From NCBI GenBank assembly GCA_937930585.1, contig CALHCA010000057.1, forward strand, positions 1-5,429: a DNA stretch of 5,429 nucleotides. The letters are read 5' to 3'. The notes under the pieces were generated by a model. The model was not told the origin of the DNA. It did not search any database and saw nothing but the letters and a program-made list of their open reading frames with translations. A program made the translations under genes and the position numbers. Source of the stretch: an uncultured bacterium. GTDB taxonomy: Bacteria > Patescibacteriota > Saccharimonadia > Saccharimonadales > Saccharimonadaceae. This document shows, one piece after another, positions 3,538-4,508 of the stretch; position 1 is the first letter of the stretch; every line of letters begins with the position of its first letter.

Positions 3538-3620
3538 TAAAATACACAAAAAATAAAGCTAAGCTATTTTTATAATAAATGCTAATTTTAGTCCTACATA
3601 TATAAATATTAAACAATTTA

Positions 3621-3645
3621 AAAGCCCCTCGAATGAGGGGTTTTA
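3621..3645 (-). terminator. Intrinsic terminator of the LPXTG gene, possibly bidirectional
   Basis: CCCCTC (3625-3630) and GAGGGG (3635-3640) form a six-pair GC-rich stem with a four-base loop, flanked by AAAA on the left and TTTT on the right. It lies 33 bases past the surface-protein stop codon. Minus-strand RNA reads GAGGGG then CUUUU, suited to ending that transcript before the hydrolase promoter. Plus-strand RNA can extend the stem through a G-U pair and ends in UUUUAUUUU, so the signal may work both ways, although no plus-strand gene reads into it. Confidence 0.85.
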
Positions 3646-3672: not shown

Positions 3673-4302
3673 TTAATATTTCTTCTTACGAAGAGACAGC
3701 CATGCTAGAGTGGCTGCTAGCAAACCTGCTAAGACTGCAAAGGTTGAATCTTTTTCACCAGTTTCTGGTAACTGCTCAGTTGATTGTTGACCTTGACCAG
3801 GTTTTTCCGGAGTCGGAGTTGGCGCTGGTTCCGGAGTCGGAGTTGGCGTTGGTTCCGGAGTCGGAGTTGGCGTTGGCGCTGGCGCTGGTTCCGGAGTCGG
3901 AGTTGGCGCTGGCGCTGGAGTTTCTTTCTTCTTGTATTTTAGGTACATCTCAACGTACCCGTCTGATGCACCATAGAAATACGTGTTAGCTATCTCATGC
4001 GTCATGAGATAGCCCGGCATCCAATCAGGATGGGTGACTATTTCATATCCATCAATATCTTTATAAATATTGATGCTTTCACCAGGGTTTATAACCCCAG
4101 TTTTAGGCGGTGCAATTTCTTGCCCCCCTCCAATATGATACCTAATACGGTATTTCAATGGCTGTAGTGTTCCCATCTCTTCTGCTTTTACAATAGTAGC
4201 ACCAAAAATAGGTGTATCAGTTAAAGCTGGAACAGTAACACCGAGAATAGCGACAGAGAGTAACGAAATACCAAGTTTGGTCCATTTATTAGTTTTCTTC
4301 AT
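3673..4302 (-). CDS. LPXTG cell-wall-anchored surface protein with Pro-rich stalk
   Basis: A 209-residue precursor expected to be exported and covalently anchored by a sortase. The signal peptide has a basic n-region (MKKTNKWTK), a hydrophobic core (about 10-27), and a likely cut after VKA (residue 40). One small domain (about 47-126) is rich in Tyr and Gly, with YRIRYHIGGGQEIAPP, KDIDGYEIV and VEMYLKYKKK. This layout is faintly like a MucBP-type adhesin repeat, which is a guess. A Pro-Thr-Glu/Ala stalk spans 128-168, followed by LPETG (178-182), a hydrophobic segment (about 188-203) and the tail RKKKY. AAGGAGGA lies eight bases before the ATG. The gene has its own promoter, a long leader and a terminator. 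No sortase gene is in the window. Higher GC, the absence of TTCGAA and the streptococcal-style signals suggest it came from a Gram-positive donor. Ligand and role are unknown. Confidence 0.93.
   Translation of the reverse strand: MKKTNKWTKLGISLLSVAILGVTVPALTDTPIFGATIVKAEEMGTLQPLKYRIRYHIGGGQEIAPPKTGVINPGESINIYKDIDGYEIVTHPDWMPGYLMTHEIANTYFYGASDGYVEMYLKYKKKETPAPAPTPTPEPAPAPTPTPTPEPTPTPTPEPAPTPTPEKPGQGQQSTEQLPETGEKDSTFAVLAGLLAATLAWLSLRKKKY
3806..3920 (-). repeat. In-frame tandem repeats encoding the Pro-rich stalk
   Basis: The 19-base string TCCGGAGTCGGAGTTGGCG (plus strand) occurs four times, at 3806, 3830, 3854 and 3890, so the spacings are 24, 24 and 36 bases. GGCGCT hexamers fill the longer gaps. 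All spacings are multiples of three, so gain or loss of units changes stalk length without breaking the frame. The encoded unit is roughly eight residues of the form APTPTPEP. Confidence 0.9.
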
Positions 4303-4310
4303 ATTTTTTT

Positions 4311-4318
4311 TCCTCCTT
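4311..4318 (-). promoter_or_regulatory. Strong Shine-Dalgarno of the LPXTG gene
   Basis: AAGGAGGA on the minus strand, eight bases (mostly A) before the ATG at 4302. It is a near-perfect anti-16S match and stronger than any other ribosome site in the window. It sits downstream of the leader terminator, so control by the leader would act on transcription rather than by hiding this site, although UUCC just upstream could pair weakly with it. Confidence 0.85.
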
Positions 4319-4352
4319 AGGAATTTTTATTTTTGCCTTTTAGACATTATGC

Positions 4353-4443
4353 AACAAAAAGGCTTCCATCAAGACCACAAAAAGGAAAAATATGAGTAAC
4401 CAAAACTCATTCTTCAACTTTTAATGTTCTTGATAGAAGCCTT
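4353..4443 (-). terminator. Leader terminator hairpin upstream of the LPXTG gene
   Basis: In minus-strand RNA the arms AAGGCUUCUAUCAAGA (4443-4428) and UCUUGAUGGAAGCCUU (4374-4359) pair over all 16 positions, with one U-G wobble. The RNA then continues as UUUUUGUU (4360-4353, the first two U being in the stem). On the other strand the wobble becomes an A-C mismatch and no U-run follows, which indicates the structure works in minus-strand RNA. The 53-nt loop is long for a simple terminator and carries the inner hairpin AUGAGU/ACUCAU (4410-4405 with 4397-4392). Confidence 0.65.
4369..4410 (-). CDS. Possible 13-residue leader peptide inside the attenuator loop
   Basis: An ATG at 4410 opens a 13-codon frame encoding MSFGYSYFSFLWS, ending in TGA at 4371-4369. 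Six of thirteen residues are aromatic (three Phe, two Tyr, one Trp). The start codon lies in the inner hairpin, and the stop lies inside the 3' arm of the terminator, so a ribosome at the end of the frame would block the hairpin. Only a weak GAAG, too close to the ATG, precedes it, so initiation is doubtful. A second frame overlaps it: TTG at 4417 to TAA at 4342-4340, 25 codons and very hydrophobic. Both may simply reflect T-rich DNA. Confidence 0.35.
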   Translation of the reverse strand: MSFGYSYFSFLWS

Positions 4444-4470
4444 ACTATTTAGTTTTAAGCTATCTATCAA
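4430..4470 (-). promoter_or_regulatory. Candidate antiterminator pairing in the LPXTG leader
   Basis: UUGAUAGA (4470-4463) is exactly complementary to UCUAUCAA (4437-4430), which lies within the 5' arm of the leader terminator. The eight-pair helix with a 25-nt loop would form first during transcription and would compete with the terminator. The upstream segment in effect mimics the terminator's own 3' arm. Confidence 0.5.
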
Positions 4471-4479
4471 CTGAGTAGT

Positions 4480-4508
4480 AGTTTATCATATTTTTATATA
4501 TTTGTCAA
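4480..4508 (-). promoter_or_regulatory. Sigma-70-type promoter of the LPXTG gene
   Basis: On the minus strand TTGACA (4508-4503) is a perfect -35. A 17-base spacer ending in TGA follows, and then TAAACT (4485-4480), giving an extended -10 (TGATAAACT). The predicted start is near 4472. It is a textbook housekeeping promoter and, unlike the other two promoters here, it drives a long untranslated leader. Confidence 0.8.

Follow-up and report, generated by a model that had tools for sequence, protein, structure and literature searches.

The window, which is the whole stretch of 5,429 nucleotides of Saccharimonadaceae DNA that was analysed, carries on its minus strand the gene for an LPXTG surface protein and, in front of it, a leader with the parts listed in Table 1. 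A sequence-only reading had described this leader as an attenuator, and the promoter, the 16-bp hairpin with a single U-G pair and the U-run are located where it had placed them. The promoter has the form TTGACA-17-TGATAAACT, with a 17-nt spacer, a TG preceding TAAACT and 10 of 12 matches. The promoter scan by itself provides no evidence, as two were found and 2.0 were expected by chance. The hairpin arms (4443-4428 and 4374-4359) form 16 pairs enclosing a 53-nt loop, with 4435-4367 as the sole U-G pair, and the U-run at 4360-4356 contributes to the final two A-U pairs of the hairpin. No terminator was reported here by the promoter/terminator scan because it allows only loops of 3-8 nt.

Table 1 Features of the leader and the LPXTG gene. 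Positions are those of the window; the last column indicates the basis of the assignment.
Feature	Position	Strand	Basis
Promoter TTGACA-17-TAAACT, extended -10 (TGA)	4480..4508	-	TTGACA 4508-4503; TAAACT 4485-4480
Segment 1, GUUGAUAGA, candidate antiterminator strand	4463..4471	-	invariant in five leaders; predicted pairing with segment 2
Segment 2 (5' arm of the terminator), also a partner for segment 1	4428..4443	-	pairing, prefix folding
Apical conserved motif ACAUUAAAAGUUGAAGA, ending in a near-copy of segment 1	4411..4427	-	identical in window, G244 and G263
Mini-ORF MSFGYSYFSFLWS, stop codon within the 3' arm; possible leader peptide	4369..4410	-	ORF comparison, 12 leaders
Segment 3 (3' arm of the terminator)	4359..4374	-	compensatory changes in homologues
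U-tract UUUUUGU, predicted termination site	4354..4360	-	sequence
Small hairpin UUCCU-AAGG-AGGAA, covering part of the Shine-Dalgarno sequence (4317-4312)	4310..4323	-	sequence; also in S. mitis-type and MKTNKV-type leaders
LPXTG surface-protein gene (209 aa), downstream of the leader	3673..4302	-	ORF, relatives
MucBP-like folded domain, residues 45-127	3922..4170	-	predicted fold
Terminator-like hairpin 3' of the LPXTG gene	3620..3645	-	sequence

Homologous leaders in Streptococcus

Using blastn and covariance models, the latter a check that the sequence-only reading had proposed for streptococcal genomes, we detected related leaders at 11 loci in 10 of 284 Streptococcus genomes. They fall into three types: an S. 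mitis/pseudopneumoniae-like type (seven genomes; hereafter S. mitis type), a type shared by genomes G244 and G263, and that of G135, which carries two copies (G135a and G135b). The blastn search gave E-values down to 7.6e-19 and any match in 24 of the 284 genomes; nine were retained with at least 83 nt over the hairpin, and the 15 others, with matches of 19-38 nt only, were left out. G135 was contributed by the covariance models. Model R1 matched 11 of the 284 genomes (G153 was left out) and model R2 matched 16 (G153, G166, G231, G240, G275 and G277 were left out after inspection); both searches used stricter filters, and weak matches were lost. The promoter architecture of the window is common to G244 and G263 and weaker in G135. 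The small hairpin over the Shine-Dalgarno sequence also occurs in S. mitis-type and MKTNKV-type leaders, some of which are without the attenuator, and may represent added translational control.

A search of the order gave matches in 10 of 395 genomes, three of which were known already; G700, G788, G817 and G897 turned out to contain ordinary terminators or unrelated DNA, and G825, G875 and G977 were left out of the inspection. A 16-mer pattern was too short, hitting at least 119 stretches; ten were inspected, four being streptococcal leaders and six not. In phages and plasmids, blastn matched nothing but AT-rich promoter sequence, over approximately 29-31 nt, and none of the 17 stretches found in viral contigs with a DNA pattern matched model R1. 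Rfam assigned no family at its cut-off to the window or to six homologous loci, in agreement with the earlier statement that no named family applies. Sequence comparison thereby indicates a leader family that is real, conserved and without a name in Rfam. Literature searches outside subscription papers and supplements listed neither a title nor an abstract dealing with this leader or with an LPXTG cassette linked to a recombinase, and the passages of PMC6722419 on resolvase and cell wall anchor do not describe such a cassette.

Alternative folds and covariation

The minus strand of 4303-4508 folds with -50.7 kcal/mol (z -4.8), which was equalled by none of 200 shuffles. Compared to shuffles, the z-scores are -5.9 for 4473-4351 and -5.1 for the leader of G244; one S. 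mitis-type leader folds no better than its shuffles (z -1.06). Upstream of the hairpin, the eight nucleotides UUGAUAGA (4470-4463) pair with the 5' arm, as the sequence-only reading had noticed. When the upstream 30 nt were dinucleotide-shuffled, this match had a p-value of 0.011 for Watson-Crick pairs and of 0.050 including G-U pairs. For Watson-Crick runs, the p-values were 0.002-0.015 in the window, G244, G263 and G135a, which are related sequences, compared to 0.89 in the S. mitis type, and a chance match including G-U had values of 0.05-0.07 in the window, G244 and G263.

Prefix folding, which describes equilibrium and not kinetics, revealed an exchange of helices in the window, G244, G263, G135a and G135b. 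Before the 3' arm emerges, segment 1 pairs with segment 2 with a probability of 0.86-0.95, and once the 3' arm is complete, segments 2 and 3 pair with a probability of 0.99-1.0. All seven S. mitis-type leaders showed 1:2 probabilities of 0.00-0.04, terminator probabilities of 0.55-0.59 and a poor U-tract; according to the folding model, these are homologous leaders in which the switch is decayed.

Segment 1 begins 7-9 nt past the -10 element in the window (8 nt), G244, G263 and G135, where start sites are predicted ones and the -10 of G135 is weak. At this distance, the invariant segment 1 would form the 5' end of the RNA, or lie within a few nt of it, as the antiterminator strand. The apical motif retains ACAUU and AAGUUGAAG in G135, and AAGUUGAAG, the near-copy of segment 1, is conserved in all five leaders with the exchange (window, G244, G263, G135a and G135b). 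Among possible sites for a binding factor, we would favour this motif.

A further competing strand had been proposed downstream (4341-4335, AAAAGGC). It does pair with 4363-4357 at 7 of 7 positions in the window, but homologues do not keep this pairing: 5, 5, 4 and 5 of the 7 positions pair in G244, G263, G135a and G135b, and four S. mitis-type leaders retain 2 of 7 each. We therefore rejected it as a working part of the leader.

Stems were tested for covariation in a structure-blind MAFFT alignment of eight leaders (A4) with 500 shuffles. In the terminator stem, 90.1% of the cells were paired and the covariation score was 0.232, each value being reached by one of the 500 shuffles, and sliding the stem out of register left at most 57% paired. 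Two of the five measures were unremarkable, namely the three pairs changed on both sides (reached by 101 of 500 shuffles) and the further pair types (166 of 500). Window G-C pairs near the base of the stem are A-U in G244, G263 and G135; for the innermost pair, the leaders show A-U, U-G, C-G or G-U. These changes suggest a modest covariation of the terminator stem. The helix of segments 1 and 2 was paired in 92.2% of the cells, compared to at most 54.7% when slid; its covariation did not go beyond that of shuffles (500 of 500, and 203 of 500 for a 13-pair version). The longer, 13-pair form is present in the window and G244 and is not significant.

The earlier proposal of an attenuator design is thus backed by homologous leaders, by covariation of the terminator and by a two-state fold that is reproducible in five of 12 leaders. 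As to whether homologues keep the pairing, the loss of which it had named as a refuting condition, the picture is mixed: the helix of segments 1 and 2 is kept in the window and at four of the 11 streptococcal loci, but it is lost at the other seven, all of the S. mitis type, and it shows no covariation.

A recombinase-linked LPXTG cassette

A serine-recombinase gene lies just upstream of the leader at all 11 streptococcal loci, and the Resolvase domain (PF00239) was found in the three recombinases tested. Several phage relatives of the recombinase, with 36-39% identity, are annotated as DNA invertases. The leader is followed by an LPXTG-type gene at each of the seven loci inspected (G001, G002, G003, G244, G263 and both copies of G135), while at the other four the downstream gene was seen at its start only. 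A further S. mitis contig (L064) encodes an LPxTG-type protein downstream as well. At least three kinds of these downstream proteins occur; the Pfam anchor scored above cut-off in L064, L020, L196 and L200 and just under it in L197. Between the two G135 copies, the stretch from ahead of the recombinase to within the signal peptide is 96% identical, after which the proteins diverge. Therefore, recombinase, leader and signal peptide appear to act as a unit with variable cargo. These comparisons go beyond the sequence-only reading in indicating that the leader is part of a streptococcal LPXTG cassette linked to a recombinase. The window itself contains no recombinase.

The unit copies of G135 (L198, L200) are located at different chromosomal sites, which resembles a duplicating or moving cassette. 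By eye, a pair of palindromes, each with a TTAACGNNCGTTA-like core, was seen between the recombinase and the promoter of the leader, at a distance of approximately 100 bp from each other. They have the same orientation, with a terminator-like repeat between them (L196:1180-1500, L200:1180-1500, L020:2385-2560), and are possibly the recombinase sites. In L159, the recombinase frame extends into the second of these palindromes, which looks as though a deletion had removed the DNA from the end of the gene to this site.

Residues 45-127 of the window protein gave MucBP domains as top Foldseek matches. The protein has no Pfam match to MucBP (PF06458) at the curated cut-off, and weak matches (best E 0.0075) were obtained in four of 44 aligned proteins. 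The fold of this domain may be that of MucBP adhesins, from which the protein differs in lacking the Pfam match. One relative is identical to it over residues 1-131. Within the LPXTG family (P0001-P0120), the proteins look assembled from interchangeable modules (signal peptides, MucBP-like domains, anchor types), and some domains are identical across differing contexts.

Among the Streptococcus genomes, 20 of 284 contain protein relatives matching alignment A2. The closest of these have a different, shorter leader, as seen at nine inspected starts, and model R1 found no match in their loci (L159-L170). The recombinase next to these closest relatives is full-length or nearly so at seven of nine loci, split in L159 and represented by its end only in L170. 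No relative of the LPXTG protein was detected in plasmids, phages and viral contigs, nor in a first scan of genome contigs with the protein as query.

Regulation, origin and related systems

Our best explanation, held with slightly more confidence than doubt, is that the leader (4473-4303) is an unnamed transcription attenuator, that it is part of a streptococcal cassette, and that leader and gene were passed on to oral Saccharibacteria (G6). During RNA synthesis, the first approximately 10 nt (segment 1) would be bound to segment 2 until the 3' arm appears, at which point the 16-bp hairpin and the U-tract would win and transcription would stop before the LPXTG gene. Termination would be the default state, and expression would need segment 1 to be held on segment 2, the apical motif to be occupied or the 3' arm to be busy. 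As a trigger, a trans-acting RNA-binding factor or pausing of the RNA polymerase seems likeliest, ahead of a translated leader peptide. No sensor was found for the leader, and we counted against the attenuator the loss in the S. mitis type, the lack of 1:2 covariation and the different leader of the closest protein relatives.

The leading rival, although unlikely in our estimation, is ribosome-mediated attenuation, in which the position of a ribosome on a translated leader peptide picks the helix and a ribosome on the mini-ORF blocks the terminator. An ORF with an AUG-AGU start and a common stop, the UGA within the 3' arm, spans 13 codons in the window and 11 codons in six of the seven S. mitis-type leaders, so that the frame is kept despite the difference in length. 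It encodes MSWLKILLLWS in five of the latter and MSWLKILLLCS in L122, and is reduced to MS in L120. These S. mitis-type counterparts (MSWLKILLL[W/C]S) of the aromatic mini-ORF are not rich in F or Y, which bears on aromatic amino-acid supply as one of the signals that the sequence-only reading had considered. In G135a and G135b, a UUG-started ORF of seven codons (MSWAFCA) leads to the same stop, and a second frame, which starts at a UUG in segment 1 and reaches AGUUGA, stays open in the window, G244, G135a and G135b. Several observations speak against this rival. A counterpart of the mini-ORF is absent from G244 and G263 among the 12 leaders compared, the second frame comprises only four codons in G263, and by eye no AGGAGG-like stretch was seen in the 14 nt before each leader-ORF start. 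Furthermore, the RNA is conserved in any case around the start and stop that the leaders share, so that these do not prove coding. A leader peptide is thus possible but not favoured, and a factor-dependent or kinetic attenuator was placed first because G244 and G263, which besides the window have the cleanest two-state folds, lack the ORF.

We consider a little more doubtful still that the hairpin is a constitutive weak terminator, which would keep the surface protein low without any regulation, segment 1 being conserved only as initially transcribed sequence. This would be in line with the fact that no regulator or ligand was found, with the 1:2 helix being without covariation and with the decayed terminator of the S. 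mitis type. It does not fit segment 1 as an invariant island that is complementary to segment 2 in five leaders, nor the low shuffle p-values of four related leaders as opposed to that of the S. mitis type (see above). That the hairpin yields a stable short RNA of approximately 115 nt acting in trans, with the gene expressed by read-through, is very improbable: the leader does have its own promoter and terminator and a conserved apical motif, but this candidate has no assigned target. An equally improbable reading takes the long inverted repeat for a recombinase or transposon site in the DNA instead of an RNA switch; the adjoining serine recombinase at 11 of 11 streptococcal loci, the long imperfect palindrome and a plus-strand match of model R1 in the window (38 bits vs 91) would agree with it, whereas by eye the pair of palindromes located between recombinase and promoter resembles recombinase sites more closely, the G-U pairs among the stem changes fit RNA better than DNA, and only one strand has a U-tract after the hairpin.

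Returning to the attenuator, leader and gene have likely been passed between streptococci and Saccharibacteria, and the range of the leader in the DNA searched suggests the direction from Streptococcus to Saccharibacteria. The Saccharibacteria JB001 and JB003 carry an element of approximately 10 kb, which is flanked by PinE-invertase homologues and approximately 95% like a Streptococcus salivarius region; based on this element, Streptococcus was proposed as a possible host of G6 (PMC8386444). The recombinase of the streptococcal relatives belongs to the same broad class as these PinE-invertase homologues, and the present locus is likely another streptococcus-like acquisition in clade G6. It may be speculated, as the most tentative extension of the attenuator reading, that with an antiterminator at the RNA 5' end the choice of start site, trimming of the 5' end or early pausing flips expression of the adhesin, and that the episymbiont took switch and adhesin, which belong to a surface-protein cassette carried by a recombinase, from its possible streptococcal host. 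If this were true, a host-derived RNA switch would govern the surface of an episymbiont. The leader provides a sequence-defined candidate for an RNA switch of surface-protein genes next to a serine recombinase in oral streptococci, and knowing its trigger would tell when such cells change their surface.

Factor-dependent attenuators of Gram-positive bacteria consist of a promoter, an antiterminator strand, a terminator hairpin and a U-tract, followed by the regulated gene. The leader has the same order of parts, but it contains no known binding site, has no known regulator or Rfam model, and precedes an LPXTG gene. As in leader-peptide attenuators, a mini-ORF overlaps the terminator arm in the window and in most S. 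mitis-type leaders; different from them, no ribosome-binding site was seen and G244 and G263 have no ORF. In Bacillus subtilis pyrG, according to the part of PMC4448216 that treats it, reiterative addition of G at the start site prevents attenuation. In both cases the 5' end of the RNA would decide on downstream attenuation, but the 5' strand is encoded here and there is no link to pyrimidines. According to the respective passage of PMC11394854, Rli51, the leader of Listeria mpl, acts from the 5'UTR to attenuate a gene whose product takes part in interaction with the host, and the present leader would do likewise, although mpl is unrelated to the LPXTG gene. Finally, the section of PMC4448216 on Streptococcus agalactiae reports eleven non-Rfam attenuator leaders, which give a short terminated RNA and a long mRNA from one start site; those named in that text precede rimP-nusA-infB and ABC-transporter operons, whereas the leader described here precedes an LPXTG gene.
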